From Cytobacillus kochii (lineage in GTDB: Bacteria > Bacillota > Bacilli > Bacillales > Cytobacillaceae), in the NCBI RefSeq assembly GCF_020171845.1, contig NZ_JAIVAM010000004.1, positions 62,001-126,000 of the forward strand: a DNA stretch of 64,000 nt, written 5' to 3'. The position numbers and the translations under genes are program-made. Numbering within the stretch: position 1 is the first letter of the stretch; each line of letters opens with the position of its first letter. This document shows positions 15,620 through 38,445 of the stretch, piece after piece. The notes under the pieces are model-generated. The model was not told the DNA's origin and did not search any database. It worked only from the letters and a program-made list of their open reading frames with translations.

Positions 15620-15633
15620 GGAGAGCAACTATC

Positions 15634-15948: not shown

Positions 15949-15950
15949 GG

Positions 15951-15985
15951 AGGGGGGCTGCTTTCATGCAGACCCCTTTTTCTTA
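15951..15985 (+). terminator. Intra-operon terminator or attenuator
   Basis: GGGGGCTGC pairs with GCAGACCCC (one mismatch; about 15953-15977) across a TTTCAT loop and is followed by TTTTTC. It lies between the DUF3870 and MaoC-like genes and probably lowers expression of the MaoC and regulator genes. Confidence 0.7.
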
Positions 15986-16013
15986 TCATCGTGTAAAAAA
16001 GGAGAAGAGTGAT

Positions 16014-16430: not shown

Positions 16431-16435
16431 ATAAG

Positions 16436-17746: not shown

Positions 17747-17754
17747 GTAAGTAG

Positions 17755-17803
17755 AAAACGTAAGCAGATTTTGGCAGGGAGCCAATTTGTTTACGTTTTT
17801 TTG
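17755..17803 (+). terminator. Terminator after the sigma-54 activator
   Basis: AAAACGTAAGCA with an inner ATT/GGC arm pairs with the complementary arm ending TTTACGTTTTTTTG. The paired region is about 20 bases with a few mismatches. Confidence 0.8.
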
Positions 17804-17841
17804 TTGATAACACTCGTTCATTTACTGTATGATGACACATT

Positions 17842-17880
17842 TTTGCAAATATAATTCGCAAAAGTGAGATAAATTCGCAA
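17842..17880. promoter_or_regulatory. Candidate upstream activating sequence for the sigma-54 activator
   Basis: A near-perfect 21-base palindrome (17842-17862, TTTGCAAATATAATTCGCAAA) is followed by a further half site, AATTCGCAA (17872-17880), that directly repeats 17853-17861 at a 19-base period. It lies about 50-90 bases upstream of the -24/-12 promoter, a normal distance for enhancer sites. Confidence 0.65.
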
Positions 17881-17930
17881 TGGTAAGAAGAATGAAACCG
17901 AATAAACAGCTTCAAACAAATAAATTAATT

Positions 17931-17947
17931 TGGCATGGTTCTTGCTT
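17931..17947 (+). promoter_or_regulatory. Sigma-54 (-24/-12) promoter
   Basis: TGGCAT-GGTTC-TTGCTT. The invariant GG (17932-17933) and GC (17944-17945) are separated by exactly 10 bases, matching the TGGCAY-N5-TTGC consensus. It is 24 bases upstream of the acyl-CoA dehydrogenase start. Confidence 0.88.
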
Positions 17948-17970
17948 ATTAGTAACTGAGAGGAGGATGG

Positions 17971-19137: not shown

Positions 19138-19167
19138 ATACAAATCAGAAGAAAAGGAGAATCACTA

Positions 19168-19968: not shown

Positions 19969-19992
19969 ATGAAAGATGAAGGAGTGTTTATT

Positions 19993-21603: not shown

Positions 21604-21635
21604 ATGTGACTTAAGTAAAAAGGAGTGTTTGAATA

Positions 21636-22376
21636 ATGAGTAAAATTGCCTATATTACCGGTGGCGGTAGGGGGATGGGAAGAGCAATTTGTTTAGCCGT
21701 TGCAAATAATTATCAAGTGGTTGCCAGTGATATCAATATAAATAATGCGAAAGAAACTATTGAACTTGTGAAAGAAATAGGTGGAGAGGGGTTTGCTGTA
21801 CATTGTGATGTTACGAGTTTAGAAAGTGTAGAACGATCAGTAAAGGAAGTGCAGCAGAAGTATGGGCGTATTGATTTACTTGTAAATAATGCGGGATGGG
21901 ATAAAATTGAACCATTTTTACAAAGTGAACCCGATACTTGGAGAAAGGTAATAGACATTAATTTAATGGGTCAAGTACACACATGTAAAACGATCCTGCC
22001 ATTAATGATAGAAAATGGGAAAGGAAAGGTAGTCAACATTGCTTCAGATTCTGGGAGAGTAGGTTCAAGTGGAGAAGGAGTTTACTCTGCTGCTAAAGGT
22101 GGTGTAATTGCATTTACAAAGACGATTGCAAGAGAAATGGCCAGATATCAGATTAATGTGAACTGCATTGCGCCAGGTCCAGCCGATACGCCACTTTTCC
22201 AGGAGATAGGATCTTATAATAAAGGGATTGCTGCTGCACTAGAGAAAGCCATTCCATTCCGAAAATTAGCCCAACCAGAGGATATTGCTGGGGCAGTCGC
22301 TTTTTTTGCTTCGAAGGAAGCGGATTATATTACCGGGCAAACACTTTCTGTTAACGGTGGTTTAACAATGTGTTAA
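21636..22376 (+). CDS. badH: 2-hydroxycyclohexanecarboxyl-CoA dehydrogenase (BadH-like SDR)
   Basis: A 246-residue classical SDR. It has the nucleotide motif TGGGRGMG (9-16), NNAG, and the catalytic Ser and Tyr-x3-Lys (VYSAAK). The passage NNAGWDKIEPFLQSEP and the IASDSGRVGSSGE segment resemble BadH of Rhodopseudomonas rather than FabG. BadH oxidises 2-hydroxy- to 2-ketocyclohexanecarboxyl-CoA with NAD, the substrate for the BadI-like enzyme two genes upstream. It is last in the sigma-54 operon; a short AAAAAGG/CCTTTTT hairpin (22386-22405) follows the stop. Confidence 0.82.
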   Translation: MSKIAYITGGGRGMGRAICLAVANNYQVVASDININNAKETIELVKEIGGEGFAVHCDVTSLESVERSVKEVQQKYGRIDLLVNNAGWDKIEPFLQSEPDTWRKVIDINLMGQVHTCKTILPLMIENGKGKVVNIASDSGRVGSSGEGVYSAAKGGVIAFTKTIAREMARYQINVNCIAPGPADTPLFQEIGSYNKGIAAALEKAIPFRKLAQPEDIAGAVAFFASKEADYITGQTLSVNGGLTMC

Positions 22377-23161: not shown

Positions 23162-23965
23162 ATGCCTACCATAAGAGTAAGTAAAGAAATGAAGATTCAT
23201 TACAGAGTGAAAGGTGAGGGAAAGCCGCTTATTATTTTACACGGGTTAGGTAATAATTCTCAGTCGTGGACAAAACAATTGGATGATTTATCAAAAGACT
23301 TTCAAGTATTCGTTTGGGATGCACCAGGTTATGGTCAAAGTAGTGATCCGGAGGAAGAGTTTACAAGTTTTCGGCAATTTGCTGATGTACTAAAGCAATT
23401 TGTCGATGCACTAGAATTACAAAAATTTTACTTACTTGGTCATTCAATGGGTTCTGCCATAGCTATAGATTTTACCTACCGTTACAAAGATAGAGTTGAA
23501 TTACTTATTATTGCTGATCCAACACGAGGGGCTGCTGGGAATAGTGAAGAAGAGAACAGGAAAAAGTTAACTAGAAGAGTTTATAATGTGACAAACCTGA
23601 CAGGAGAAGAACTAGCAAAACAAAGAGTAAGAGAATTGTTGGCGCCAGAGGCGAATCTGGAGGTTGTGAAAGAAGCAGAAAGAATTATGGCACAAGTTCG
23701 ACCGAAAGGGTATATCTCGGTTGCTAACTCATTATATTCCTTGGATCACACAGACATTTATGGGAGTATAACAACGCCAACTTTAATATTATGTGGTGAA
23801 TTTGATAAGGCAACTCCTGTTGAAGAAGCAGAAATATTTCATCATGCGATTGCCGAATCACAGTTGGTGATCATTCCTAAGACAGGCCATCTATGCTATC
23901 AAGAGGATCCAGCATCTTTTAATGAAGCCGTTCGGACATTTCTGCAAAATCCTGTAAATATATAA
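23162..23965 (+). CDS. Alpha/beta hydrolase, meta-cleavage-type
   Basis: A 267-residue alpha/beta hydrolase with nucleophile Ser95 (GHSMGSA), acid Asp215 (GEFDKATPV) and His243 (KTGHLCY); the oxyanion region is LHGLGNNSQSW. It resembles 3-oxoadipate enol-lactonases and C-C hydrolases of meta-cleavage products. With an extradiol dioxygenase in the same cluster, hydrolysis of the ring-fission product is a plausible role. The ATG at 23162 is set by GAGGAGGAG; the longer frame from 23087 would overlap its own promoter. A Fur-like TGAAAATGATTCTTA follows the stop. Confidence 0.8.
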   Translation: MPTIRVSKEMKIHYRVKGEGKPLIILHGLGNNSQSWTKQLDDLSKDFQVFVWDAPGYGQSSDPEEEFTSFRQFADVLKQFVDALELQKFYLLGHSMGSAIAIDFTYRYKDRVELLIIADPTRGAAGNSEEENRKKLTRRVYNVTNLTGEELAKQRVRELLAPEANLEVVKEAERIMAQVRPKGYISVANSLYSLDHTDIYGSITTPTLILCGEFDKATPVEEAEIFHHAIAESQLVIIPKTGHLCYQEDPASFNEAVRTFLQNPVNI

Positions 23966-24048: not shown

Positions 24049-24825
24049 GTGGCTAACGGTGAAAAAGAGAGATATAATGCCAATTCATTAGTCAGAGGAT
24101 TAGAAATTTTGAAATTATTCAACGGTGGACGTCCAACGATGTCTCTAGCTGAAATTGCGAAGGAACTAAATGTAAGTCGTACAGTACCATACCGTTTACT
24201 TTATACATTGCAAACGTTAGGTTACTTACATCAAGATGAACATACAAAGCGCTATAGCTTAACACCAAAAGTGCTTGAGCTTGGGTTTGCTTATTTGAAT
24301 AGTTTAAACTTACCTGAAATCATTCAGCCTTATTTGGATACACTCCGTGATACAACTGGAGCGTCATGTCATTTATCGATATTAGATGATTATGAAGTCG
24401 TATACATAGGTAGTGCACCTGTTCGCGGGGTATCTGCCATAAATGTAAATATCGGTTTAAGATTGCCTGCACATGCAACAGCTAATGGCAAGCTTCTATT
24501 AGCTATGCAACCAGAAGGGAAGCTACGTGAGACAGTGTATGGATCTAACTTAAAACCGTATACAGAAAAAACGCAAACTGATTTACCTGGGTTCTTTGAA
24601 GAATTAGAAACAATCAGGAAAAACGGTTATGCGATATCTTTAGGTGAATTCCATCAAGGGATTCAATCTGTGGCTGCGCCAATCTATGATCGTAGTGGAA
24701 AAGTGGTAGCAGCCATAAATATTGTCGCCACTGATGTCACATATCAGAATGATTTTATCGAAAAAGTAGCTTTACCGAAAATCCTTGATATATCCAAACA
24801 ATTATCCGGACTTGTTGGAAATTGA
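24049..24825 (+). CDS. IclR family transcriptional regulator
   Basis: A 258-residue IclR protein. The N-terminal winged helix (LVRGLEILKLFNGG, SLAEIAKELNVSRTVPYRLLYTLQTLGYL, about 13-63) is followed by the effector domain with LPAHATANGKLLLA and GIQSVAAPIYDRSGKVVAAINI. Such proteins control aromatic acid catabolism and bind small aromatic or keto acids. GTG 24049 follows GGGGTGATGGA. It lies between the hydrolase and the transporter, whose promoters share a palindromic motif. It is therefore the obvious candidate regulator of the cluster. Confidence 0.9.
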   Translation: MANGEKERYNANSLVRGLEILKLFNGGRPTMSLAEIAKELNVSRTVPYRLLYTLQTLGYLHQDEHTKRYSLTPKVLELGFAYLNSLNLPEIIQPYLDTLRDTTGASCHLSILDDYEVVYIGSAPVRGVSAINVNIGLRLPAHATANGKLLLAMQPEGKLRETVYGSNLKPYTEKTQTDLPGFFEELETIRKNGYAISLGEFHQGIQSVAAPIYDRSGKVVAAINIVATDVTYQNDFIEKVALPKILDISKQLSGLVGN

Positions 24826-24864: not shown

Positions 24865-24892
24865 ACCCGAATCTTATTGATTCGGGTTTTTG
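24865..24892 (+). terminator. Terminator after the iclR-type gene
   Basis: ACCCGAATC pairs perfectly with GATTCGGGT (24879-24887) and is followed by TTTTTG. Confidence 0.88.
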
Positions 24893-25439: not shown

Positions 25440-26711
25440 ATGTTAACAGGAAAGAAAAGATGGTTATATATTGCTGTACCGATATTTTTCTTTTGGTTTT
25501 TTGGCCAAATTGACAAGCTCGGTATTTCTATTATTCAAACAGATGCTGATTTTCTTAGTGACTTAGGGATTGCTGGTGAAAATGCCAAGATTGGTTTCAT
25601 CACTTTTATATTCACAATTGCTTATGCGGTTTCAAACCTATTTTGGGGTGTAATTATTGATAAACTAGGTGCCAGAAAAACAGCAATGTTAGGTTTGGTT
25701 GTTTGGACCATTACTATGATTACTGCTGGCTTATCGACTACATATGAAATGTTTATCTTATCAAGAATCGTTCTTGGATTTGGTGAGGGAATGATGATTC
25801 CTGTATGTGGAAAATTCATTGCTAACTGGTTCCATTATAAAGAATTAGGAAAAGCACAAGCTTCATGGTTATCTGGTAACTATTTAGGCCCGGCTGTTGG
25901 TGCATTAATGTTAACCGCTATCATTGCTAGTCTCCATTGGCAAGCTGCATTTTTCTTACTCGCTGCTTTTAATTTATTGCTTGTACTGCCACTTTTTTAT
26001 TTTCTTACAAGAGATATACCAGAAGAGCACAAAGGGATTACACATGATGAGCTTTCCTATATACGTGAGAAAAACCCGGTTGATAAAAAAGATGGATCGA
26101 AAAATTTTGCCCAAGACTATCGGTACTGGATTGTATGGTTTGGAATGCTGATGTCTTCCTTCTTATTTTTTGGTATTAGTATATGGTTACCTACTTATTT
26201 AATCGAAGCGAAGAGTTTTTCTAGGGAAGCAATGAGTAGTATTACATCCTTATCTTGGTTATTTGCCTTAGGATTTGTCCTTATTTGTGGTTACTTATCA
26301 GATAAGACAAACCGTCCAAGCCTGATGGCGACCATTTTATTTGTACTAACAACAATCTTTTTATGTGGTGGTATTATGTCACCTAACGCGATAGTTGCTG
26401 GTATTTGCATGGGGTTAGCTATGGGTACACAAGGTGGAGTCTTCCATCTAAGTAATTTATTTATTGTGAAATTCTCTACACCTGAAACCGCTGGTAGAGC
26501 AGCAGGTATGATGGGGTTTACTAATATTATGGGTGGTTTCGCCAGTTATATTATGGGATATTTACGAGATCTATCAAACGGAGACTTTGGGACATCAATT
26601 ATTGTGTTAATTTTTGCCTCCACGTTAGGTTTTGTTGCATATTTATTTACTCTTAAGCGTGAATCAACTGAGTTAAGGGTTGTTCATAATAACCAGTCAA
26701 TAGTGGGGTAA
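25440..26711 (+). CDS. MFS transporter, anion:cation symporter family
   Basis: A 423-residue transporter with about 12 membrane helices. FGQIDKLGISIIQTD in helix 1 and the signature between helices 2 and 3 (DKLGARKTAMLGLVVW) place it in the ACS branch, which takes up organic acids such as hexuronates, glucarate or 4-hydroxyphenylacetate. AGGAGGG precedes the ATG. It has its own promoter with a palindromic operator and opens the catabolic part of the aromatic cluster. It is probably the uptake system for the cluster's substrate, which would then be an aromatic carboxylate. Confidence 0.85.
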   Translation: MLTGKKRWLYIAVPIFFFWFFGQIDKLGISIIQTDADFLSDLGIAGENAKIGFITFIFTIAYAVSNLFWGVIIDKLGARKTAMLGLVVWTITMITAGLSTTYEMFILSRIVLGFGEGMMIPVCGKFIANWFHYKELGKAQASWLSGNYLGPAVGALMLTAIIASLHWQAAFFLLAAFNLLLVLPLFYFLTRDIPEEHKGITHDELSYIREKNPVDKKDGSKNFAQDYRYWIVWFGMLMSSFLFFGISIWLPTYLIEAKSFSREAMSSITSLSWLFALGFVLICGYLSDKTNRPSLMATILFVLTTIFLCGGIMSPNAIVAGICMGLAMGTQGGVFHLSNLFIVKFSTPETAGRAAGMMGFTNIMGGFASYIMGYLRDLSNGDFGTSIIVLIFASTLGFVAYLFTLKRESTELRVVHNNQSIVG

Positions 26712-26842: not shown

Positions 26843-27370
26843 ATGGCAATTGATGTTAAAGAATTTGAAAAGAAGCATGTAGCAAGATTACAGGATCGTT
26901 CATTAGATTGGAATGTTCTTAAATTCCAAGAAGAAATTGACCCAAGATTTAAAAGAGCACAAATGAGATATATTGGTCGTGGAGCCACTGCAAATGCTGA
27001 TTCTAATGTTATTGCAGCTGAGCACTTTACATTAAGCACAATGGTATTACCTGCAGGTTGTATTGGACCATTGCATTTACATGATGATGTTGAAGAAGTT
27101 TTCTTCATTATTAAAGGAAGTGTAAAAGCGTTGATTCAAGAAGTAGATAGTGATGAGGTTCATGAAATTCGTTTAAACGAGCGTGATTGTATCAGCTCCC
27201 CACCTGGCGTATATCGTGGGATTCATAATGATGGTGACGAAGAAGCATTAATGTTGGTTATGCTTGGTGCAGTTAAACCGAATTTGCCAACTTACGTTAA
27301 AGGGAGCGAATTAGAAGAACTTCGTCTTCAAAGAGCGAAAGAAAGAGAAGCAATTATTGCAGATAAATAA
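26843..27370 (+). CDS. Cupin domain protein
   Basis: A 175-residue single-cupin protein. The first cupin motif is visible as GPLHLHDDVEEVFFIIKGSV (metal ligands probably the two His and a Glu of HLHDDVEE) and the second as SPPGVYRGIHNDGDEEALML. It could be a metal-dependent dioxygenase, isomerase or a binding protein; relatives occur in aromatic clusters. It has its own regulated promoter and ends in a strong terminator, so it may be made in excess over the following genes. The reaction is unknown. Confidence 0.72.
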   Translation: MAIDVKEFEKKHVARLQDRSLDWNVLKFQEEIDPRFKRAQMRYIGRGATANADSNVIAAEHFTLSTMVLPAGCIGPLHLHDDVEEVFFIIKGSVKALIQEVDSDEVHEIRLNERDCISSPPGVYRGIHNDGDEEALMLVMLGAVKPNLPTYVKGSELEELRLQRAKEREAIIADK

Positions 27371-27378
27371 TTAAGTGA

Positions 27379-27425
27379 GGTAAGGAAGACCAATCTCATA
27401 TGGTCTATCCTTACCGATTTTTATT
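27379..27425 (+). terminator. Strong terminator after the cupin gene
   Basis: GGTAAGGAAGACCA pairs with TGGTCTATCCTTACC (27401-27415; one unmatched base) and is followed by GATTTTTATT. The extradiol dioxygenase gene downstream needs read-through or its own promoter, which I cannot identify. Confidence 0.88.
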
Positions 27426-27508
27426 AACATTCTATATTTACCAATAATTTGTAACGAGCGAAACATTTACCACGAACTTTCGCTTTATTTATAGAGGAGG
27501 TTTTCAAA

Positions 27509-28423
27509 ATGATTGGTATTACCCATTTAAGACATATCAGTCTTATTACTCCGAACATTGAAGAACAAGCAGCCTTTTATGAAAAAGTTTGGGGATTAGA
27601 CAAAACGGCTGAGGATGAACAAACGGTTTATTTCAGAGGAGCAGGACCTGAGAACCATATTCTTAGTTTGCACAGTGGAGACAGAAGTGCTCTTCATCAT
27701 ATCGCATTTGGCATGGTGGATAAGCATGCTGTTGACCGTGCTGCAGAATATTTACAAGAAAAAGGCGTACCGATTGTGCAAGCACCGGGCTATTTAGATG
27801 AGGAAGGTAAAGGTTATGGTCTCCGCTTTGCTGATCCAGAAAATCGTGTAATCGAATTATCGACGTGGGTTGAAATTCATACATCTATTTGGAATCAAAA
27901 AAATGTAGATCCAGTCAAGCTTAATCATGTAGTCATGAATACCGCTGATTTACAAATGATTACAGAATTTTATACAGATATTCTTGGCTTTAAAGTGACA
28001 GACTGGAGCGAAGATAAAATGGTGTTCTTACGTTGTAATCGAAAACATCACTCCATTGCTTTTAATCAAGAGGGTCATGCATCTGTCAATCATATTGCTT
28101 ACGAAGTTGACACAGTTGATGAGGTAATGCGTGGCATTGCTAATGTGCGGAAAGCTGGATTGAGTGAACTATGGGGACCAGGTAGACACGGACCAGGAGA
28201 TAATATCTTTTGCTATTTCAAAGACCCAGGTAATTTTGTTATGGAATACACTTGTTATCTTGAAACGATTGAGGATGAAGCAGAATGGAAAGCAAGAGTA
28301 TGGAAACGTGTACCACACTTAATGGATCAGTGGGGGATTGCTGGGCCACCATCCAAAGAAGCACGTGCAGCAATGGGGGGAAAACCAGATCCAGGCTGGG
28401 CAAAATTACAATCTTTGATTTAA
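27509..28423 (+). CDS. Extradiol (catechol 2,3-type) dioxygenase, VOC superfamily
   Basis: A 304-residue two-module type I extradiol dioxygenase, the usual length. The Fe(II) ligands in the second module are His140 (LNHVVMNT), His195 (VNHIAYEV) and Glu246 (VMEYTCYL). The first module keeps LRHISLIT and LHHIAFGM. These enzymes open catechols next to the two hydroxyls to give yellow ring-fission products. Relatives include 2,3-dihydroxybiphenyl and homoprotocatechuate dioxygenases. It would act after the Rieske dioxygenase and cis-diol dehydrogenase encoded downstream. An AGGAGG site lies before ATG 27509. Confidence 0.85.
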   Translation: MIGITHLRHISLITPNIEEQAAFYEKVWGLDKTAEDEQTVYFRGAGPENHILSLHSGDRSALHHIAFGMVDKHAVDRAAEYLQEKGVPIVQAPGYLDEEGKGYGLRFADPENRVIELSTWVEIHTSIWNQKNVDPVKLNHVVMNTADLQMITEFYTDILGFKVTDWSEDKMVFLRCNRKHHSIAFNQEGHASVNHIAYEVDTVDEVMRGIANVRKAGLSELWGPGRHGPGDNIFCYFKDPGNFVMEYTCYLETIEDEAEWKARVWKRVPHLMDQWGIAGPPSKEARAAMGGKPDPGWAKLQSLI

Positions 28424-28450
28424 TGCCTAACTTAAGAAAGGAAGAGTGTA

Positions 28451-29242
28451 ATGGATTTAGGATTAAATAATAAAGTAGCAATTATTATGGGAGGGACTTC
28501 AGGCGTTGGATTGAAAACGGCTGAGATGTTCCTAGCTGAAGGTGCTAAAGTTGCTATTTGTGGTAGAGATGAAACAAGAAAAAATACGGCAGAGAAGTAT
28601 TTAACTGATTTAGCATCTGCTGATCGCATTTTTGCCGAAACATGTGATGTAACGAATAAAGAAGATGTACAGCGTTTTGTCAAAGGTGCGGCAGAAAAAT
28701 TTTCAGGTATTGATATTTTAGTTAATGCAGCAGGGCAAAGTGTAATGGGACATTTCTTTGATGTTACTGATGATCAATGGGAACAACAGATTCAATTAAA
28801 GTATTTTGCTATCATCCACGCTGTAAAAGCTGTTCATCCCTACTTAGTTAAGCGTGGCGGCGGTCGAATAATAAATATAAATGCTACGCTCGCGAAAGAA
28901 CCGGAGAGGCATATGATTGCAACAGCTGCGACAAGAGCAGGATTACTTAATTTAAGTAAAACATTATCGCAAGAACTGGCGAGTGATAATATTCTTGTGA
29001 ATTCTGTAAGTCTTGGCTTAATTAGAACGGATCAATGGGAGAGAAGAAGGAAAAAAAATGCACCCGAGATGGATCCAGAAAGTTATTATGCAGACTTAGC
29101 GAAGAAAAGAAATATCCCACTTGGTCGTGTTGGAGAAGCAGAAGAAGTAGCTAGTGTGATTTTATTTTTAGCATCCAAGCATGCAAGTTATGTCGCTGGC
29201 TCAACTATTGAAACAGCAGGTGCATTAGGAAAGGCGTTATAA
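28451..29242 (+). CDS. SDR-fold protein lacking the usual catalytic residues
   Basis: A 263-residue Rossmann protein with a recognisable but altered nucleotide motif (MGGTSGVG) and NAAG. At the Tyr-x3-Lys position the sequence reads TAATR, with Thr158 and Arg162 in place of Tyr and Lys; the catalytic serine region reads NINATLAKEP. Ordinary SDR oxidoreduction is therefore unlikely by the standard mechanism. Atypical SDRs of this kind exist in catabolic clusters and may act as lyases, decarboxylases or isomerases. It is co-transcribed with the TPP enzyme (26-base gap). Confidence 0.8.
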   Translation: MDLGLNNKVAIIMGGTSGVGLKTAEMFLAEGAKVAICGRDETRKNTAEKYLTDLASADRIFAETCDVTNKEDVQRFVKGAAEKFSGIDILVNAAGQSVMGHFFDVTDDQWEQQIQLKYFAIIHAVKAVHPYLVKRGGGRIININATLAKEPERHMIATAATRAGLLNLSKTLSQELASDNILVNSVSLGLIRTDQWERRRKKNAPEMDPESYYADLAKKRNIPLGRVGEAEEVASVILFLASKHASYVAGSTIETAGALGKAL

Positions 29243-29268
29243 ATACACAAAAAAGGTAGGAAGATACT

Positions 29269-30990
29269 ATGACAGAAACAAAGCAAATGGAGACAGCGGG
29301 GGTAACAGATAACTCGGAGATGAACTATACGGTTGCTGATGCGATTGTTCAAGAGCTTGTTAAAGCGGGCGTTACGACAGCATTTGGAATTGTAAGTATA
29401 CATAATATGCCGATTTATGATGCCATTCTACGAGAAGGAAGCATCCATCTTGTTTGTGCACGTGGCGAAAGTGGCGCGGTAAATATGGCCGATGGCTACG
29501 CACGTGTTACAGGAGAGTTAGGTGTTGTCATTACAAGTACAGGAACAGGCGCAGGTAATGCAGCTGGCGCACTTGTTGAGGCTTGGGCAGCAGGTGTACC
29601 ACTTCTGCATCTAACTGGTGAAGTAGCATCCCCCTATTTAGGTACTGGCCGTGGCTATATTCATGAATGTAAAGATCAATTATCAATGTTAGAAGGATGT
29701 TCTAAACAAGCGATGCGCTTAAGAGTGCCACATCAAGCAAAAGCAGTGGTAAGGCAGGCGGTTGTAACTGCTCAAACTGCGCCGGCAGGACCTGTTTCGT
29801 TAGAAATCCCCATTGATTATCAATCTGCGATTATTCCTGACCTGCATTTACAAGACTGGTCGGTAAAAACTCCGGAAGCTAACTCAAATACATATATTCC
29901 TGAAGATATTCTCTCATTGGTTGCTAAAGCGAAACGTCCTGTGATTTGGGCTGGTGGAGGTGTCATTTCAGCAAATGCATCCCAAGAGTTAACAAGATTG
30001 GCCAATCAGCTAGGAGCTGCTGTTATTACGAGCCAATCTGGAAAAGGAAGCATCCCTGAAGATCATCCTCAATGTATTGGTCATTTTGCTGCCTATCCAG
30101 ATACGAAAGAAATGCTCAAGAATGCGGATTTGTTAATTAGTGTCGGTGTGAGATTTAGAGGAAATGAAACGTCCAATTGGAAGGTTGAAGTGCCGAATAA
30201 TCATATTGCAATTGATGCCGATTGGCAAGGAATGAATCGAAATTATCCTTGTAGTTATGGACTGGTTGGAGACGCGAAGGATATTTTAAATAACTTTGTC
30301 ACGCAATTACAGACAAAAGACGTTCAAGATAAACCATCGTATAAGGCTGAAGTAAAGCAACTAAGAGAAAAATTACGAGCTAATTTACGTGCAACTTTAG
30401 GTCCATATGAGCAAATAATGGACGAAATGAGAGCAGCATTACCGAAAGATACAGTGCTCGTACGAGATGTAACAGTACAAGCTAATGTATGGGGCAGCAG
30501 ATTATTCGAGATTCTTGAACCGAGAACATCTATTCATGCTTCCGGTGGTGGAATAGGTCAAGGGTTACCGACAGCGATTGGCGCTCAAATGGCTGCAAAG
30601 GATCGCAAAGTAGTTTTAATGGCTGGTGATGGGGGCTTTATGGTCAATGTTGGTGAAATGCCGACTGCTGCCGAGGAAGCACTCCCACTTATTGTTATCT
30701 TATTTGATGATGGTGGTTATGGCGTTCTTCGTAATATTCAACAAAATGCATATGGTCGTCAAGTAGCTGTTGATCTACTAAGTCCTGATTTTGTGCAATT
30801 GGGAGAGTCTATGGGATTTGATGCGGTACGAATTCATTCAAGTGATGAATTTGCGGTAGAAATTAATAAAGCGGCAAAAAGTGTTAATCCGACAATCATC
30901 GTTGTAGATATGGAAGCTGTAGGACCAATGGCTAAACCTTTTGAGGGACCTCCTGGTGCTGCTGATGCGTTTAAACCGAAGAAGTTATAA
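29269..30990 (+). CDS. Thiamine pyrophosphate enzyme, acetolactate synthase/decarboxylase-like
   Basis: A 573-residue three-domain TPP enzyme. The cofactor-activating Glu67 is in CARGESGAVNMADGYAR. The central domain has PVIWAGGGVI, and the TPP-binding motif is GDGGFMVNVGEMPTAAEEALPLIVILFDDGG, with FDDGG replacing the more common NN. It groups with acetolactate synthase, benzoylformate decarboxylase and benzaldehyde lyase-type proteins, but no IlvN partner is nearby. In this cluster a decarboxylation of an aryl or alkyl 2-oxoacid giving an aldehyde for the next gene product (an aldehyde dehydrogenase) is a reasonable inference. Confidence 0.82.
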   Translation: MTETKQMETAGVTDNSEMNYTVADAIVQELVKAGVTTAFGIVSIHNMPIYDAILREGSIHLVCARGESGAVNMADGYARVTGELGVVITSTGTGAGNAAGALVEAWAAGVPLLHLTGEVASPYLGTGRGYIHECKDQLSMLEGCSKQAMRLRVPHQAKAVVRQAVVTAQTAPAGPVSLEIPIDYQSAIIPDLHLQDWSVKTPEANSNTYIPEDILSLVAKAKRPVIWAGGGVISANASQELTRLANQLGAAVITSQSGKGSIPEDHPQCIGHFAAYPDTKEMLKNADLLISVGVRFRGNETSNWKVEVPNNHIAIDADWQGMNRNYPCSYGLVGDAKDILNNFVTQLQTKDVQDKPSYKAEVKQLREKLRANLRATLGPYEQIMDEMRAALPKDTVLVRDVTVQANVWGSRLFEILEPRTSIHASGGGIGQGLPTAIGAQMAAKDRKVVLMAGDGGFMVNVGEMPTAAEEALPLIVILFDDGGYGVLRNIQQNAYGRQVAVDLLSPDFVQLGESMGFDAVRIHSSDEFAVEINKAAKSVNPTIIVVDMEAVGPMAKPFEGPPGAADAFKPKKL

Positions 30991-31019
30991 GTAAACATCT
31001 GAGTATAGGAGGAAGCAAA

Positions 31020-32465
31020 ATGATTTCAACATATCCTAAAGTTTCAGGAAAATTTTTAATTGATGGTAAATGGTTGGAAGCGGAAAATAAAAAAGAAGTC
31101 ATTAATCCAGCAAATACGCAAGAAGTAGTTGGAGAAGTTGCCCTTTGTACAAAGGAGCATGTTGATAAAGCGATAACATCAGCAGTGACGGCATTCGAAT
31201 CTTGGTCACAATCAGATATTCACGAACGCGCAGAAAAAATGAAGCTAGCAGCAGGAGCGATTGAAAAAATCGTTGAAGAGAATGTGAATTTACTCGTAAG
31301 GGAAAATGGTAAAATATTAATTGAAGCAAAGAAAGATCTACTTCGATGTGTCGACATTATGAGAGAAGCGTCCGATGAATTATTAACTTGGTGGCAACCA
31401 GAGTCATTAGATGGAAAACAGAAAGTGCAAATTCGGAGAAGGCCGAGAGGGGTAACTGCGGTAATCTCACCATGGAATTCACCGATGATTTTAACCTTTA
31501 AGCGTGTTATTCCTGCTATCTTAACAGGTAATACAGTTATCGTTAAACCGGCTACAAGTTGTCCGCTAACGATTATGACATTTCTAGAAAAAGTGGCTTC
31601 ATACTTTCCAAATGGTGTATTGAATGTTGTAACAGGATCAGGTTCAATAATAGGAGATGCACTTTGCAAAGATTCTAGTGTACGCACAGTTGCCTTTGTT
31701 GGTAGTACGGAAACGGGTAAAGAAATTATGAAAGCGTCAGCTAGCAATGTGAAAAACATTTTCATGGAATTAGGCGGGAATGATGCAGCCATTATCTTGG
31801 AAGATGCGAAACTCGATGATGAATTAATAACTAAGTTAAGATTTGGTATCTTACGAGCAGCTGGTCAAGTATGCTCAGCAGTTAAAAGGGTATATGTGCA
31901 TGAATCTCGTTATGAAGAGCTTGTAGAAAAATTAAGGAAAAAGTTCCAATATATTCGTGTTGGTAGTGGGATTCAACCAGATGTAGAGATGGGGCCGTTA
32001 AATAATCAATCACAATATGAATATGTGAAAGGGTTAATTTCGAGAGCGAAAGATGGAGGGGCAGAAGTCCTTACAGGTGGAATCAAAATTGATCCAGAAG
32101 GTTGGAATGATGGATACTTTATTGAACCTACCATTATTACTGGTGTTAATCAAAATAGCGAAATTGTTCAAGCAGAACAATTTGGACCAGTAATTCCGAT
32201 TCTCTCATTTCAAACAAATGAAGAAGCTTTAAAGCTTGCAAATGATAGCCATTTTGGTTTGCGTGCGTCTGTTTGGACAGAAAATGAAAAGAAAGCGATT
32301 GCTTTTGCTGATCAATTAGAAGCCGGTGCTGTATTTATCAATAACCATACCGTATTCCAGGACCTTCATTTAGATTTTCCTGGTTTAAAAGAAAGTGGTA
32401 TTTCACGCGAAACGAGACACTGTAGCTTGGAATTTTTTGCAGACACTTATGGATTCGCGAATTAG
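31020..32465 (+). CDS. NAD(P)-dependent aldehyde dehydrogenase
   Basis: A 481-residue aldehyde dehydrogenase with catalytic Cys285 (GQVCSAVKR), general base Glu250 (MELGGND), the cofactor loop VGSTETGKEI and the substrate-region PWNSPMI. It oxidises an aldehyde to the acid. Its position directly behind the TPP enzyme (29-base gap) suggests it takes the aldehyde released by that enzyme. Relatives include benzaldehyde, vanillin and succinate-semialdehyde dehydrogenases; the specificity cannot be read. Confidence 0.88.
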   Translation: MISTYPKVSGKFLIDGKWLEAENKKEVINPANTQEVVGEVALCTKEHVDKAITSAVTAFESWSQSDIHERAEKMKLAAGAIEKIVEENVNLLVRENGKILIEAKKDLLRCVDIMREASDELLTWWQPESLDGKQKVQIRRRPRGVTAVISPWNSPMILTFKRVIPAILTGNTVIVKPATSCPLTIMTFLEKVASYFPNGVLNVVTGSGSIIGDALCKDSSVRTVAFVGSTETGKEIMKASASNVKNIFMELGGNDAAIILEDAKLDDELITKLRFGILRAAGQVCSAVKRVYVHESRYEELVEKLRKKFQYIRVGSGIQPDVEMGPLNNQSQYEYVKGLISRAKDGGAEVLTGGIKIDPEGWNDGYFIEPTIITGVNQNSEIVQAEQFGPVIPILSFQTNEEALKLANDSHFGLRASVWTENEKKAIAFADQLEAGAVFINNHTVFQDLHLDFPGLKESGISRETRHCSLEFFADTYGFAN

Positions 32466-32481
32466 AAAGTAGGGTTAAAAA

Positions 32482-33264
32482 ATGAAGCTGGGATTAATAG
32501 GTGGAGGAAATATCGGAAAATTTTTGCTACAATCTATCAATAGCGATAAATTGGTAGATGGCGCACAATTCGTTGGATTGTATACAAGAAATCAAGAGAA
32601 AGCAAATGAGCTGGCAGAAGAGTATGATTTGCGAAGCTACCAATCCATCGATGAGTTGATTGCTTCAGATATAGATGTGATAGTTGAAGCAGCTACTGTA
32701 GAAGTTGTTCGAGCTCATGCCACATCGGTTCTCACACATGGTAAAGATCTCGTTGTGAGCAGTGTTGGCGCATTTTCTGATAACGACTATTTTCTCCAAT
32801 TAGAAACAATTTGTAAAGAACAAGGGACAACGATTCATTTACCTTCAGGTGCGGTAGGAGGCTTGGATATATTAAAAGCTGCTAAAGCTATTGGTGCTTT
32901 ACAAGAAGTATCGTTAACAACAACAAAGCCACCGCATGCCTTAAACGGTGTTACTCTCGAGAATAAAACAGTCTTATTTGAAGGTAATGCCTATGAAGCG
33001 ATTAAACAGTTTCCTAAGAATATTAACGTATCAATTATTCTATCGTTAGCTGGACTTGGTTCAAAAGAGACAAAAGTGAAGATTATTGCTGATCCAAAAG
33101 CAACGAAAAATAGCCATGAGATTACAGCTAAAGGGGCGTTTGGAAAAGTGAAACTATTGGTTGAGAATGACCCGATGCCAAACAACCCAAAGACAAGTTA
33201 CTTAGCAGCTTTAAGTGTTCTCTCAACATTGAAACATAAGGATCAATCTATCAAAGTGGGGTAA
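32482..33264 (+). CDS. L-aspartate dehydrogenase-like oxidoreductase (DUF108)
   Basis: A 260-residue protein with the N-terminal Rossmann motif LGLIGGGNIGKFL and the C-terminal DUF108 domain (LPSGAVGGLDILKAAKAIG; KNINVSIILSLAGLG). This is the layout of L-aspartate dehydrogenase (NadX). The nad genes that would signal NAD synthesis are absent. Proteins of this family also appear in catabolic clusters, where they may reduce or oxidise imines or aldehydes. It is 16 bases after the aldehyde dehydrogenase. Confidence 0.75.
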   Translation: MKLGLIGGGNIGKFLLQSINSDKLVDGAQFVGLYTRNQEKANELAEEYDLRSYQSIDELIASDIDVIVEAATVEVVRAHATSVLTHGKDLVVSSVGAFSDNDYFLQLETICKEQGTTIHLPSGAVGGLDILKAAKAIGALQEVSLTTTKPPHALNGVTLENKTVLFEGNAYEAIKQFPKNINVSIILSLAGLGSKETKVKIIADPKATKNSHEITAKGAFGKVKLLVENDPMPNNPKTSYLAALSVLSTLKHKDQSIKVG

Positions 33265-33323
33265 GAATTAGTACAATAATCTTTGTGACATCGATGAATC
33301 AATTGGTAAGAAGGGGGATTATT

Positions 33324-34625
33324 ATGATTAAAACGGTAAAAGACATAGAGGATATGACAAAATCGGAACTATTGGAACATTTGAATGATACGGTCAAACC
33401 GGAAGTAGGAGAAATACCTGCATACGTATTGGCCGATCCGAAAGTTTATGATCTAGAACATAAAAAAGTCTTTATGAAAACATGGATATTTATTGGTCAT
33501 GAATCAGAAATACCTAATAAAAATGATTATATGCTGAGAGACTTAGCCGGATATTCAATTATTGTATCTAGAAATCCAGATAGCAGCATCAAGGCATTTT
33601 ACAATATGTGTACGCATCGTGGGATGAAGTTGTGTCGTGCAGACAAAGGGAATAAATCTGCTTTTGTTTGTCCATATCATGGATTTAACTTTAAAAACAA
33701 TGGTGATTTAATTGGTGTTCCATTACAAAAAAACATTTATGGCGAAGAGCTAGATAAATCTACTATGGGTTTAACAGAAGTGCGAATTGAATCCTATAAA
33801 GGATTGTTATTTGGTACTTGGAATGATGAGGCAGAATCATTAGATGATTTTTTAGGAGACTTTAAATGGTATCTTGATATATTAGTAGGTCGAGCTGAAA
33901 TGGAAGTGCTCGGTGCTCCACAACGTTTCGTGATTCATTCGAATTGGAAAATTGGTGCTGATAATTTTGTTGGTGACTCCTATCATACAATGGTGACACA
34001 TGGCTCAATTGCTAAATTAGGAATGGTACCCTCTGCAACGTATTCCAAAATGGGTTATCAAATTCATAGTGAAAATGGCCATGGTCTAAATCTTGGGACA
34101 CCAAACCCTGATTTTGCTTTCCCAGAAGAATTAATAGAAGAATATAAATCGAATTTATCGTCAGAACAGTTCGAAGTGTTAAGTAACTTGAAGAATATGA
34201 TCGGGAACATCTTTCCACATCTATCTTTCTTAATTTCTCATACGAAAGTAAAAGGGCAATTAATTTCCAATACCACTGTTAGGTTATGGCGACCAATCGA
34301 TCACGACAAAATGGAAGTGATTGCTTGGTTTTTAGTGGAAAAAAATGCACCGGAAGATTGGAAGAGACGTTCACGTGAATCCTTTGTCCTTACATTCAGC
34401 CCATCAGGCATTTTTGAACAAGACGATACGGAAGTATTTACTGACATTACTGCCGCAGCAAAAGGTCCTATGCCAGTAATGAAAAATTTAACTTATAACT
34501 ACACAATGGGACTGCATAGAAAACCAGTAGACTTTATTGGTCCTGGAGTTGCTTATGATGATAAATTCTCTGAAGCGAACCAAAGAAATTTTTATAAATA
34601 CTGGTTGGAGCTAATGAATAGCTAA
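33324..34625 (+). CDS. Rieske aromatic ring-hydroxylating dioxygenase, alpha subunit
   Basis: A 433-residue large subunit. The Rieske [2Fe-2S] ligands are Cys96, His98, Cys116 and His119 (Cys-x-His-x17-Cys-x2-His). The bridging Asp218 and iron ligands His221 and His226 follow in GDSYHTMVTH, and the third ligand is probably Asp367 or Asp368. The enzyme adds O2 to an aromatic ring to give a cis-dihydrodiol. The ATG at 33324 follows AAGAAGGGGG; the longer frame from 33285 has no ribosome site. The beta subunit follows by 28 bases. No ferredoxin or reductase is encoded nearby, so electron donors must come from elsewhere. Confidence 0.92.
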   Translation: MIKTVKDIEDMTKSELLEHLNDTVKPEVGEIPAYVLADPKVYDLEHKKVFMKTWIFIGHESEIPNKNDYMLRDLAGYSIIVSRNPDSSIKAFYNMCTHRGMKLCRADKGNKSAFVCPYHGFNFKNNGDLIGVPLQKNIYGEELDKSTMGLTEVRIESYKGLLFGTWNDEAESLDDFLGDFKWYLDILVGRAEMEVLGAPQRFVIHSNWKIGADNFVGDSYHTMVTHGSIAKLGMVPSATYSKMGYQIHSENGHGLNLGTPNPDFAFPEELIEEYKSNLSSEQFEVLSNLKNMIGNIFPHLSFLISHTKVKGQLISNTTVRLWRPIDHDKMEVIAWFLVEKNAPEDWKRRSRESFVLTFSPSGIFEQDDTEVFTDITAAAKGPMPVMKNLTYNYTMGLHRKPVDFIGPGVAYDDKFSEANQRNFYKYWLELMNS

Positions 34626-34653
34626 ATATTCTTGAAGAAAGGAGATAGATGAA

Positions 34654-35163
34654 ATGAGTATGGAAAAAATGCTTGCAAACTATGAATTTGAACAATGGCT
34701 ATATAAAGAAGCACAATTATTGGATGATATCGATTTTGATGGCTGGTTCAGTTTGATGCATCAAGATTTGAAGTATCAAATGCCAGTCCGTATAAATAAG
34801 GAAGGAACAGAGCGACCTGATTATACGACAGATATGTTTTGTTTCGATGATGATATTGACTTGCTAAAACTCAGAGTGGATCGATTAAAAACAGATTATG
34901 CTTGGGCGGAAATTCCACCTTCTCGAACTCGACGTTTTGTCAGTAATGTAAAACTGGATGATTATAAAGAGGGAGAATTTGCGTCAGTGAATAGTTATTT
35001 ACTTCTTTATAGAAGTAGAAGTACAGATATCCATCACGATATTATTTCAGGAGAGCGTCGTGATGAATTCAAGTTCGAGAACGGCAAATGGAAGTTATCG
35101 AAACGGGTATTTATCGTGGATCAAACAACAATCAATACTCGAAATCTAGCAATCTTTATTTAA
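34654..35163 (+). CDS. Ring-hydroxylating dioxygenase, beta subunit
   Basis: A 169-residue small subunit of the NTF2-like fold. EQWLYKEAQLLDDIDFDGWFSLM near the start, VDRLKTDYAWAEIPPSRTRRFVSNV and the end WKLSKRVFIVDQTTINTRNLAIFI are typical of RHO beta chains. It has no cofactor and completes the alpha3beta3 hexamer. AAAGGAGATAG precedes its ATG. It is directly behind the alpha gene and before the dihydrodiol dehydrogenase. Confidence 0.9.
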   Translation: MSMEKMLANYEFEQWLYKEAQLLDDIDFDGWFSLMHQDLKYQMPVRINKEGTERPDYTTDMFCFDDDIDLLKLRVDRLKTDYAWAEIPPSRTRRFVSNVKLDDYKEGEFASVNSYLLLYRSRSTDIHHDIISGERRDEFKFENGKWKLSKRVFIVDQTTINTRNLAIFI

Positions 35164-35196
35164 TTTATTCACAAGGAAGAGAGGAGGACAACTAGA

Positions 35197-35982
35197 ATGG
35201 CAGAGTTTAGTGGTCGCTCGCTTTATGTAACTGGTGGGGCATCAGGTATTGGGAGAGCTGTGGTGGATTCATTTCTGAATGAAGGAGCAAATGTGACGAT
35301 TCTTGATCGCTCAAAAGACGGATTAGCTGCTATCAAGGCACAATATGGTGAGCAGGTGATTTGTATAGAAGGAGATGTGACTATTTTTGAAGACCACGAA
35401 AAAGCGGTATATCAAGCTGTTGAAAAATTTGGGGGACTAGATGTCTTTATAGCTAATGCAGGGGTATTCGATGGATTTGCAAAATTCGAAAATGTGACCG
35501 CTGAAGCAATGAATGATGCTTATGATTTATTAATGAACATTAATGTTAAAGGGTATTTCAACGGTGCGAAAGCTTCCCTTCACGAATTGCAAAAGACAAA
35601 AGGTAATATCATTTTCACCGTTTCAGGTGCAGGATTTTACCCTGATGGTGGTGGGGTATGGTACACCGCTAGTAAACATGCGCAAATTGGTTTAATGAGA
35701 CAATTAGCTTTTGAGGTTGCCCCAGACGTAAGAGTGAATGCAGTTGCCCCTGGTGGGACATTAACAGCACTTAATGTCATCCCACCTTTAAAACCATTTG
35801 TGAAGGAAATCGACAATGATACGAAAGCGAAAAGCATAAAAACGAGAAATCCATTAAGAATCGCAATGAATGCTGATGATCATGTTGGTCCATATTTATT
35901 ATTAGCTTCGAGTAAATCACGCGCCATTACTGGTGAAGTCATTTCGAGTGATGGAGGCCTAGCCATCAGAGGGCTTAGTTAA
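35197..35982 (+). CDS. cis-dihydrodiol dehydrogenase (BphB-like SDR)
   Basis: A 261-residue SDR with TGGASGIG (12-19), NAG, and an intact active site SGAGFYPDGGGVWYTASKHA. The long FYPDGGG insert before the catalytic tyrosine is characteristic of cis-2,3-dihydrodiol dehydrogenases acting after Rieske dioxygenases. It would re-aromatise the cis-diol to a catechol using NAD, making the substrate of the extradiol dioxygenase. It is 33 bases downstream of the beta subunit with a GAGAGGAGG site. Confidence 0.88.
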   Translation: MAEFSGRSLYVTGGASGIGRAVVDSFLNEGANVTILDRSKDGLAAIKAQYGEQVICIEGDVTIFEDHEKAVYQAVEKFGGLDVFIANAGVFDGFAKFENVTAEAMNDAYDLLMNINVKGYFNGAKASLHELQKTKGNIIFTVSGAGFYPDGGGVWYTASKHAQIGLMRQLAFEVAPDVRVNAVAPGGTLTALNVIPPLKPFVKEIDNDTKAKSIKTRNPLRIAMNADDHVGPYLLLASSKSRAITGEVISSDGGLAIRGLS

Positions 35983-35994
35983 GAAAGGGGATAA

Positions 35995-36960
35995 ATGATT
36001 ATGGCATCGAATACGAAAATACAGCCACTTCTTGGTAGTACAGAGGTCAATCAATTAGCATTTGTTGTTAATGATATTGAAAAAGCCTCGGCTGATTTTT
36101 CAAAACTGTTAGGTATCGCTAATCCTGGCTGGTTCTTAACAGGTGATGAGGAAGTCTCTAAAGTAATTTATAAAGGAAAGCCGACCGCTTCACAAAGTAA
36201 ACTAGCATTCCTAAATACACCGACTGTTCAATTTGAACTTATAGAACCTAATATGGAGCCGGGAACAATGCGCGAATTTCTCAATGAGACAGGAGAAGGA
36301 ATCCATCATATTGCGGTTGATGTTGATATGATTCAAAATCATTTGTCAAACCTAGAAAAAAATGGTTATCCACTTCTTCAATCAGGTGAGTTTACATCAA
36401 GTGATGGAAGGTACATTTATGTTGATACAGCGAATGAAACGAAAACTTTGATTGAATTATTAGAGAGTGCCGAACCTAGGGATACTACATACAAAGCGGG
36501 AGAAGAAAAGCCACTTTTAGGTACAAATGTTGTTGAACAACTTGCTATCGTGGTTAAAGATTTAGATAGAGCAGCAGATAAGTTTTGTCAATTGCTAGGT
36601 GTGAAAAAATCAGAAGTGATTCAATCAGGTCATAGTGACATAACAAAAGTTGTTTATAACGGTGAAGCAACGGAAGCGGATAGTCGCTATATGTTCATTC
36701 GAACACCATTATTAGAAATTGAGTTAATAGAGCCTGGAAAAGCGCCAAGCACATGGAAGACACATTTAGAATCATTTGGAGAAGGTGTTCACCATATATC
36801 CTTTGTTGTAAAAGATATGGATGAAAAGATTACACTTCTAGAAGAAATGGGCTATCCTGTTATTCAAAGAGGTAATTTTTATAACGGAAAAGGCAGATAT
36901 GCTTATATGGACACAACTTCAACTTTTAAAGTCATCATTGAGTTGTTAGAAAAATATTAA
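35995..36960 (+). CDS. Tandem VOC/methylmalonyl-CoA epimerase-like protein
   Basis: A 321-residue protein built from two similar VOC halves (about 15-155 and 175-320). Both contain VNQLAFVVNDIEKA/VEQLAIVVKDLDRA, FELIEPNMEPGT/IELIEPGKAPST and GEGIHHIAVDVDM/GEGVHHISFVVKDM. The metal-binding His and Glu pattern resembles methylmalonyl-CoA epimerase more than extradiol dioxygenases. It may be an isomerase, lyase or a second dioxygenase for the ring-fission product. The start is ATG 35995, with 36001 as an alternative 10 bases after AAAGGGG. Confidence 0.75.
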   Translation: MIMASNTKIQPLLGSTEVNQLAFVVNDIEKASADFSKLLGIANPGWFLTGDEEVSKVIYKGKPTASQSKLAFLNTPTVQFELIEPNMEPGTMREFLNETGEGIHHIAVDVDMIQNHLSNLEKNGYPLLQSGEFTSSDGRYIYVDTANETKTLIELLESAEPRDTTYKAGEEKPLLGTNVVEQLAIVVKDLDRAADKFCQLLGVKKSEVIQSGHSDITKVVYNGEATEADSRYMFIRTPLLEIELIEPGKAPSTWKTHLESFGEGVHHISFVVKDMDEKITLLEEMGYPVIQRGNFYNGKGRYAYMDTTSTFKVIIELLEKY

Positions 36961-37110
36961 ACAATATTGGGAAGCGCTTTGTAAATGAAGAGGTATACAA
37001 GGTTGCTTCTCTCAATTTTTTAAGGAAATACTTATCAGGTGATTGCATAACAATAGTTGATGTTTTTATTATCTGAATTTTCAAATAAAAAAATAAGCGA
37101 GGGTTATATG

Positions 37111-38310
37111 ATGGAATTAAAGGAGAAAGCACTAGCGCTTCATCGTTTGCATAAGGGAAAACTTAGTATTAGCACAAAGGTGCCAGTAAAAACGAAAGAA
37201 GATTTAAGTTTGGCGTATTCTCCAGGTGTAGCTGAACCTTGCTTAAAGATTGCTGAGCATGAAGAGTCAGCCTATGAATATACGAGTAAAGGCAATATGG
37301 TCGCAGTCGTTTCAGACGGTAGTGCCGTTTTAGGCCTTGGAAACATAGGTGCACAGGCATCTTTACCTGTAATGGAGGGAAAGGCGATTCTTTTTAAAGA
37401 GTTTGCCAATGTCGATGCTGTGCCAATCTGTCTTCAGACCAATGATGTAGATGAGATTGTCCGTACGGTCAAATTATTAGAGCCCTCATTTGGAGGGGTG
37501 AACCTTGAAGATATTTCTGCACCTAGATGTTTTGAAATTGAACAAAGATTAATTGAAGAATGCGGAATTCCTGTCTTCCATGACGATCAACACGGTACGG
37601 CAATTGTAACAGTAGCTGGTTTAATCAACAGCTTGAAGGTTGTGGGGAAAAAGCTTGATGAAATAAAAGTAGTCGTTAATGGTGCAGGTGCAGCAGGGAT
37701 TTCAATTATTAAATTATTAAGAAAATTAAATGTTGGCGAAATGATTCTTTGTGATACAAAAGGAATGATTTATAGCGGAAGAGAGGAAGGGATGAACGCG
37801 ATTAAAGAAGAGGTAGCCAAAATAACAAACAGTAAGTCTCTATCGGGTACGTTAAAAGAGGCAATTAATGGGGCAGACGTGTTTATTGGAGTCTCTGCAG
37901 CAGGTGTATTATCTAAAGAAATGGTACAAACAATGAATCGTGATGCGATAATTTTTGCGATGGCTAATCCTAGTCCAGAAATTATGCCAGAGGAAGCCAA
38001 AGATGCTGGAGCAGCCATCATTGGTACCGGCCGGTCTGATTTTCCTAATCAAGTGAACAATGTATTAGCTTTTCCAGGGATTTTTAGAGGTGCATTAGAT
38101 GTAGGAGCCAAAGTGATTAATGAGGAAATGAAGATTGCGGCTGCTTATGCAATAGCAGGTATGATTAACGAAGAAAAACTTACTAGAGACTATATTATCC
38201 CAGATCCATTTGATACCAATGTAGCACATAATGTGGCGAAAGCAGTTAGTGAAGCAGCCATTTCTACTGGTGTCACTAGAAATGCATATAGAGAACCAAT
38301 TTTTATATAA
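37111..38310 (+). CDS. NAD(P)-dependent malic enzyme
   Basis: A 399-residue short (bacterial type) malic enzyme that decarboxylates malate to pyruvate. The active-site regions SLAYSPGVAEPCL, VFHDDQHGTAIVTVAGL and the nucleotide motif VVNGAGAAGISI are clear. Length matches YtsJ/MaeA-type enzymes. GAGGG lies 7 bases before ATG 37111; ATG 37108 is a close alternative and the longer frame from 37057 lacks a site. At the end of the aromatic cluster it could balance C4 and C3 pools when ring carbon enters the TCA cycle. It may be a separate unit. Confidence 0.9.
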   Translation: MELKEKALALHRLHKGKLSISTKVPVKTKEDLSLAYSPGVAEPCLKIAEHEESAYEYTSKGNMVAVVSDGSAVLGLGNIGAQASLPVMEGKAILFKEFANVDAVPICLQTNDVDEIVRTVKLLEPSFGGVNLEDISAPRCFEIEQRLIEECGIPVFHDDQHGTAIVTVAGLINSLKVVGKKLDEIKVVVNGAGAAGISIIKLLRKLNVGEMILCDTKGMIYSGREEGMNAIKEEVAKITNSKSLSGTLKEAINGADVFIGVSAAGVLSKEMVQTMNRDAIIFAMANPSPEIMPEEAKDAGAAIIGTGRSDFPNQVNNVLAFPGIFRGALDVGAKVINEEMKIAAAYAIAGMINEEKLTRDYIIPDPFDTNVAHNVAKAVSEAAISTGVTRNAYREPIFI

Positions 38311-38410: not shown

Positions 38411-38445
38411 TGGCCACAAGTCATTTAAACTTGTGGTCTTTTTTA
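38411..38445 (+). terminator. Terminator after malic enzyme
   Basis: GGCCACAAG (38412-38420) pairs with CTTGTGGTC (one G-T pair) and is followed by TTTTTT. Confidence 0.88.

Follow-up and report, generated by a model that had tools for sequence, protein, structure and literature searches.

Kynurenic acid is a tryptophan product of animals and microbes, and the chemistry of its breakdown was established around 1960. For Pseudomonas, the quinoline branch of kynurenate catabolism was reportedly described by Taniuchi, Hayaishi and co-workers; Delftia acidovorans is reported to be the organism of this early work. The route leads via the 7,8-dihydrodiol to 7,8-dihydroxykynurenate, and extradiol cleavage yields 5-(3-carboxy-3-oxopropenyl)-4,6-dihydroxypicolinate; subsequently, the side chain is reduced, decarboxylated to an aldehyde and oxidized to an acid. 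Enzymes of this pathway are classified as EC 1.14.99.2, 1.3.1.18 and 1.13.11.10. A Pseudomonas kynurenate pathway had been proposed (PMC5610271, PMC11354673), and products in pseudomonads include glutamate and alanine (PMC11354673). In the searchable literature, no genes are assigned to kynurenate breakdown; most subscription papers were outside this search, so that priority is not claimed. Here, we analyze a stretch of 64,000 nucleotides from Cytobacillus kochii (contig NZ_JAIVAM010000004.1, positions 62,001 to 126,000), which is named the window in the following. With a probability of about 0.6, we deduce from the sequence that a 14-kb operon of the window serves the catabolism of kynurenate (4-hydroxyquinoline-2-carboxylate) and is a Gram-positive variant of a widespread module. 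The odds are roughly even that it represents the first gene set for this orphan pathway, that the route ends with glutarate and with iminosuccinate captured by an L-aspartate dehydrogenase (AspDH), and that the upper part was replaced in Bacillaceae.

Like the Pseudomonas pathway, the module would provide for a dihydrodiol, a dihydroxy compound, extradiol cleavage, side-chain reduction, decarboxylation and aldehyde oxidation, in this order. The former represents Gram-negative enzymology, whereas the operon of the window would be a Gram-positive variant with an alpha-beta Rieske enzyme, for which an end consisting of ring opening and AspDH is proposed. A Rieske alpha-beta enzyme, a HcaB/BphB-like dehydrogenase, an extradiol enzyme and an alpha/beta hydrolase are also found in the hca/mhp and bph pathways. 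Unlike these, the module lacks a hydratase, an aldolase and an acylating acetaldehyde dehydrogenase; it contains a thiamine pyrophosphate (TPP)-dependent enzyme, an aldehyde dehydrogenase (ALDH), an atypical short-chain dehydrogenase/reductase (SDR), a cupin and AspDH.

All genes between positions 23162 and 38310 lie on the forward strand, in the order listed below. They were identified by means of Pfam and NCBIfam profiles, unless noted otherwise.

23162-23965, +: alpha/beta hydrolase (Pfam), proposed C-C or ring-opening hydrolase
24049-24825, +: IclR-family regulator (PF01614/PF09339)
24865-24887, +: terminator-like hairpin 3' of the IclR gene
25440-26711, +: MFS transporter (PF07690), proposed to take up the substrate
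26843-27370, +: cupin (PF07883), proposed to convert the opened pyridine as a metal-dependent hydrolase or isomerase
27509-28423, +: type I extradiol ring-cleaving dioxygenase (PF00903), related to HpaD/C23O
28451-29242, +: SDR2, an atypical SDR (NF005468/PRK07062, above cut-off), proposed to reduce the C=C bond in the side chain of the 2-oxo acid
29269-30990, +: TPP-dependent 2-oxo-acid decarboxylase-like enzyme (NF005470/PRK07064)
31020-32465, +: ALDH (PF00171)
32482-33264, +: AspDH of the archaeal/NadX subtype (PF01958, formerly DUF108; NF009830, TIGR03855)
33285-34625, +: Rieske dioxygenase alpha subunit (PF00355/PF00848), start probably ATG 33324
34654-35163, +: Rieske dioxygenase beta subunit (PF00866)
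35197-35982, +: SDR1, a classical SDR and cis-dihydrodiol dehydrogenase related to HcaB/BphB, with S-Y-K
35995-36960, +: tandem VOC protein (PF13669 twice), optional accessory
37057-38310, +: malic enzyme, family recognized from the sequence without a profile scan
38412-38438, +: terminator-like hairpin closing the gene run

For the hydrolase, the listed start is TTG 23087, and ATG 23162 is preceded by a good ribosome site. The gaps from the extradiol gene through the tandem VOC gene comprise 12-33 bp. Terminator-like hairpins follow the IclR and the malic enzyme genes, although the regional count of such sites does not exceed chance. In two other genomes, the malic enzyme likewise adjoins the module and closes the gene run. 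The catalytic motifs of the Rieske alpha subunit, the TPP enzyme, ALDH, the hydrolase, the extradiol enzyme, AspDH and SDR1 are intact.

The profiles verified all genes of the combination of Rieske, extradiol, TPP, ALDH and AspDH enzymes that the original prediction had seen in one run. A C-C hydrolase belongs to this run as predicted, but it lies upstream of the section to which it had been assigned, as does the IclR gene. A layout differing from the classic bph/hca/mhp arrangement had been noted, and the unit indeed contains neither hydratase nor aldolase. The statement that no described pathway has this set holds for gene assignments in the searchable literature; as biochemistry, kynurenate catabolism fits step by step.

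Conservation of the module

An alignment of the TPP enzyme was scanned against approximately 85,000 species genomes, and the best 80 loci were kept. The companions at these loci were scored with proteins from the window and Gram-negative reference proteins; eight were considered, namely the hydrolase, the cupin, the extradiol enzyme, SDR2, ALDH, AspDH, the Rieske enzyme and SDR1. All eight occur at 56 of the 80 loci and at least six at 63, which are the modules counted below. Each companion family is kept in 60-63 of these 63 modules. The sample is biased toward close TPP relatives and kinship was not corrected for; the counts therefore indicate conservation and not independent events. What had been taken for an odd mixture of genes is thus one module conserved across several phyla, far beyond chance.

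The phyla include Bacillota, Actinomycetota and Pseudomonadota, and Bacillaceae, Acinetobacter, Providencia, Budvicia, Pseudomonas, Paraburkholderia, Streptomyces and Amycolatopsis are among the hosts; the complete module is present in the genome of the Acinetobacter baylyi type strain. Most module families also occur on one Acidobacteria contig, and no relatives were found on viral contigs. According to their public annotation, plasmid records carry an equivalent set in Nitratireductor, Pseudosulfitobacter, Paracoccus, Vibrio, Acinetobacter, Klebsiella, Novosphingobium and Caballeronia; the Vibrio module has no adjoining Rieske gene. In the Klebsiella record NZ_CP129771.1, labelled a plasmid, tkt, epd, pgk and fbaA lie beside the module, which makes it probable that this stretch is chromosomal.

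Within the genus, the cluster was found in nearly the same order in nine of 25 genomes, including that of the window. Genes farther upstream and downstream are mostly not conserved there, so that the unit begins with the hydrolase gene and ends approximately with the tandem VOC gene. The latter is absent or broken in some of the same-genus clusters and is present at 13 of the 23 module loci having a Rieske beta gene. The MFS gene is conserved across Bacillaceae modules, and an IclR gene lies within or beside many modules. Where a relative of the TPP enzyme has no extradiol gene nearby, AspDH is mostly missing, too.

Two further observations concern TPP enzymes and module flanks. At three loci, a paralogue of the TPP enzyme (53-56% identical) belongs to a second conserved cluster, together with a Rieske-like protein (31-33% identical), ALDHs and a sigma-54 regulator; this cluster has neither an extradiol enzyme nor AspDH. 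Four module flanks encode a protein of 589-591 residues that starts like a two-oxoacid:acceptor oxidoreductase and is followed by a distant TPP protein in three cases; a link to 2-oxoacid metabolism is possible.

Enzymes of the proposed route

In the proposed route, kynurenate would be imported by the MFS transporter (step 1), and the Rieske alpha-beta enzyme would add O2 at C7/C8 (step 2). SDR1 would then produce 7,8-dihydroxykynurenate (step 3), which the extradiol enzyme would open between C8 and C8a to give a 4,6-dihydroxypicolinate whose side chain is -CH=CH-CO-COOH (step 4). SDR2 would reduce the C=C bond of this side chain (step 5), the TPP enzyme would decarboxylate the 2-oxo acid (step 6), and ALDH would form 5-(2-carboxyethyl)-4,6-dihydroxypicolinate (step 7). 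With the alpha/beta hydrolase and the cupin, hydrolysis of the lactam and of the C-C bond in the beta-diketone may yield glutarate and iminosuccinate (step 8), and AspDH would reduce iminosuccinate, the oxidized form of aspartate, to L-aspartate (step 9). The malic enzyme and a glutarate route would feed central metabolism, with IclR as the regulator. On paper, the carbon is balanced: C10 equals CO2 plus C5 plus C4. The gene set appears to offer one enzyme per known step of kynurenate breakdown, in an order that matches the chemistry. As chemistry, steps 2 to 7 are known from the early biochemical work; we infer the substrate, which gene serves which step, the order of the steps, and steps 8 and 9.

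The Rieske alpha subunit contains the C-H/C-H and D-H-H motifs, and its best solved relative is the naphthalene dioxygenase 2b1x from Rhodococcus, which acts on a bicyclic ring. As in the window, a beta gene is present at all 23 Bacillota module loci of the scan. In Gram-negative modules, the Rieske enzyme consists of a single subunit and is a relative of carbazole dioxygenase and dicamba demethylase. SDR1 is HcaB/BphB-like with invariant S143, Y156 and K160, which identifies an NAD-dependent cis-dihydrodiol dehydrogenase at the family level; Gram-negative modules use a different SDR for the diol step, which is 21-30% identical to SDR1. The ligands H140, H195 and E246 of the extradiol enzyme are invariant across 13 modules, as are H181 and Y236; these enzymes split into two groups, which are 24% or 40% identical to that of the window. 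Cupin, SDR2 and TPP enzyme are approximately 39-54% identical between Bacillaceae and Gram-negative modules. A varied upper part and a preserved lower part suggest that the lineages converge on a single catechol and share its breakdown. Judged by these comparisons, the Bacillaceae form is a variant in which an alpha-beta Rieske enzyme resembling naphthalene dioxygenase and a diol dehydrogenase of another kind are connected to the shared lower pathway.

In SDR2, the YxxxK pair is replaced by T158 and R162, and the motif is missing in all members. The closest fold is that of P. aeruginosa Q9HYA2 (3lf1/3lf2, "atypical catalytic centre"), which is about 40% identical and likewise lacks the Tyr/Lys pair; the next is AerF with bound 4-hydroxyphenylpyruvate, an aryl 2-oxo acid. 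Both features would suit an enzyme that reduces a conjugated 2-oxo acid, without proving it. The TPP enzyme reaches 662 bits with NF005470/PRK07064 (cut-off 495) and has a GDG motif; its closest named relative, from Cytobacillus stercorigallinarum, is 95% identical. ALDH carries its catalytic Cys within GQVC. At the family level, a 2-oxo-acid decarboxylase and an aldehyde dehydrogenase are thus present, and both occur in nearly all modules. The triad S96/D216/H244 of the alpha/beta hydrolase is invariant in 11 modules, and its sequence relatives are esterases, meta-cleavage hydrolases and RutD. The cupin occurs in 63 of 63 modules, with the HxHxxxE motif and most of the core being invariant. 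Its AlphaFold2 model (pLDDT 81.7) best matched generic metal cupins; deducing a function from these folds was abandoned, as they alone were matched.

AspDH reaches 287 bits with NF009830 (cut-off 267) and 256 with TIGR03855 (cut-off 207), which places it in the AspDH family. The catalytic His of the NxH motif is invariant, and structural relatives are 2dc1 and 1j5p. AspDH was found in 60 of the 63 modules; among the 80 TPP loci, its association with the extradiol enzyme is significant (Fisher p = 2e-8, relatedness uncorrected). Two subfamilies fill this slot, the PRK13304/NadX type (window) and the PRK13303 type (Klebsiella, Nitratireductor). The Klebsiella module enzyme agrees with the purified KpnAspDH of Klebsiella pneumoniae in both termini, as encoded by the published primers, and in the mass of 26.82 kDa. 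KpnAspDH aminates oxaloacetate with 26.5 U/mg, oxidizes aspartate, and was characterized for making aspartate-family amino acids, with no link to aromatic catabolism noticed (PMC5554190); the AspDH of the window belongs to the other subfamily. RidA-family genes, whose products are enamine/imine deaminases, lie within several module operons, and two Pigmentiphaga modules contain RidA and no recognized AspDH. The near-constant presence of AspDH would be explained best by a nitrogen-bearing substrate.

A classical meta-cleavage pathway is not encoded at the locus: 2-oxopent-4-enoate hydratase, aldolase and acylating aldehyde dehydrogenase are absent from 23-38 kb, and there is no CoA chemistry inside the unit. 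The claim that the usual lower pathway is missing is correct for the locus and does not extend to the genome, as contig 11 (128000-145999) contains a complete ordinary one, with its own extradiol enzyme, hydrolase, hydratase, aldehyde dehydrogenase, aldolase, IclR and MFS. Its absence from the module is therefore a real difference.

Weighing of the alternatives

Several points weigh against kynurenate as the substrate, which is deduced indirectly. No Reductase_C-family ferredoxin reductase was found in the genome, nor was an electron donor for the Rieske enzyme. The upper and extradiol enzymes diverge between some lineages (approximately 21-30% identity), so that substrates could differ, and the roles of the cupin and the tandem VOC protein are guesses. 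Tryptophan 2,3-dioxygenase, which would supply kynurenine, was not found beside the module; in Burkholderiales genomes having both, the two lie on separate contigs, and the Acinetobacter genomes checked have no such dioxygenase. Finally, three Burkholderiales modules adjoin genes for a molybdenum hydroxylase, which belongs to the same broad family as quinaldate 4-oxidase. These neighbours count in favour of kynurenate, but among solved structures the enzyme resembles 4-hydroxybenzoyl-CoA reductase more than quinoline oxidoreductase.

Kynurenine-pathway genes had been considered as module neighbours and found no support, as tryptophan dioxygenase was not found to adjoin it. This dioxygenase was detected in 34 of the 47 genomes examined, most of them bearing the module. 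Given the missing linkage in the cases checked, kynurenate would mostly come from outside.

The main competitor, which we consider rather unlikely, retains the logic of the lower pathway and assumes another bicyclic N-heteroaromatic acid, such as quinaldate, xanthurenate or another hydroxyquinoline carboxylate, kynurenate being at most an intermediate. The variation of upper enzymes between lineages, molybdenum-hydroxylase or flavin monooxygenase genes near some modules, and the Vibrio module without an adjoining Rieske gene are in agreement with it. However, the most conserved genes (cupin, SDR2, TPP enzyme, ALDH, AspDH) imply that the modules have one set of intermediates in common, and it is the known route of kynurenate that passes through these. 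The molybdenum-hydroxylase large subunits at the Burkholderiales modules are 64-65% identical to one reference copy among them; the enzyme is possibly a feeder for another quinoline acid. Its assignment as quinaldate oxidase was not retained, as the match is at the family level and the best solved structure is a different enzyme.

A nitrogen-free, phenylpropanoid-type aromatic compound is less probable still. Here, the hydrolase would split the ring-fission product, SDR2, TPP enzyme and ALDH would convert 2-oxopentenoate to a C4 acid in place of hydratase and aldolase, and AspDH would merely recycle ammonia or cofactor. The Rieske beta subunit and the diol dehydrogenase resemble Hca enzymes, and the hydrolase has meta-cleavage relatives; yet both the 60 of 63 modules with AspDH and its association with the extradiol enzyme would stay unexplained. 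RidA likewise points to imines, and the genome already possesses the ordinary lower pathway on contig 11. The simple aromatic acids or plant phenolics initially suggested as substrates likewise do not account for the near-constant AspDH. Although Bacillaceae and Gram-negative modules have different upper enzymes, two unrelated pathways that are neighbours by chance are hardly conceivable, since the set recurs in near-identical order in many genera of several phyla; simple chance adjacency was rejected on the conservation of the set across the TPP loci.

Neighbouring regions and significance

A separate run in the window (13200-22376) encodes a CaiB CoA-transferase, two acyl-CoA dehydrogenases, a MaoC-like protein, a sigma-54 activator, a BadI/MenB-like hydrolase, a cyclohexanecarboxylate-CoA ligase-like protein and a BadH-like SDR. 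It looks like aerobic cyclohexanecarboxylate degradation, and part of it also lies near the module in one other genome. A link to glutarate via a CaiB CoA-transferase and an acyl-CoA dehydrogenase, upstream in the window and beside the Pseudosulfitobacter module, is treated as weak, since neither meets a curated cut-off (for the transferase, 459 bits to a succinate-glutarate transferase model, cut-off 750) and the genes of the window belong to the cyclohexanecarboxylate-like unit. At 52991-62714, a dense catabolic run of lipid or steroid type comprises acyl-CoA dehydrogenases, SDRs, MaoC proteins, a thiolase, a TetR regulator, a thioesterase, a phosphotransferase and an enoyl-CoA hydratase. 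The protein encoded at 5701-6780 reads like the oxygenase domain of a bacterial nitric oxide synthase.

Kynurenic acid influences both the nervous system and the immune system; it is mostly regarded as an end product, its breakdown being known in some pseudomonads. If kynurenate is indeed the substrate of the module, sequences would become available for enzymes so far known by EC number only, and a catabolic module of Klebsiella, Acinetobacter, Pseudomonas and many Bacillaceae would be explained. AspDH would have a catabolic role in module-bearing bacteria, and gut and soil metagenomes could be screened for the loss of kynurenate.

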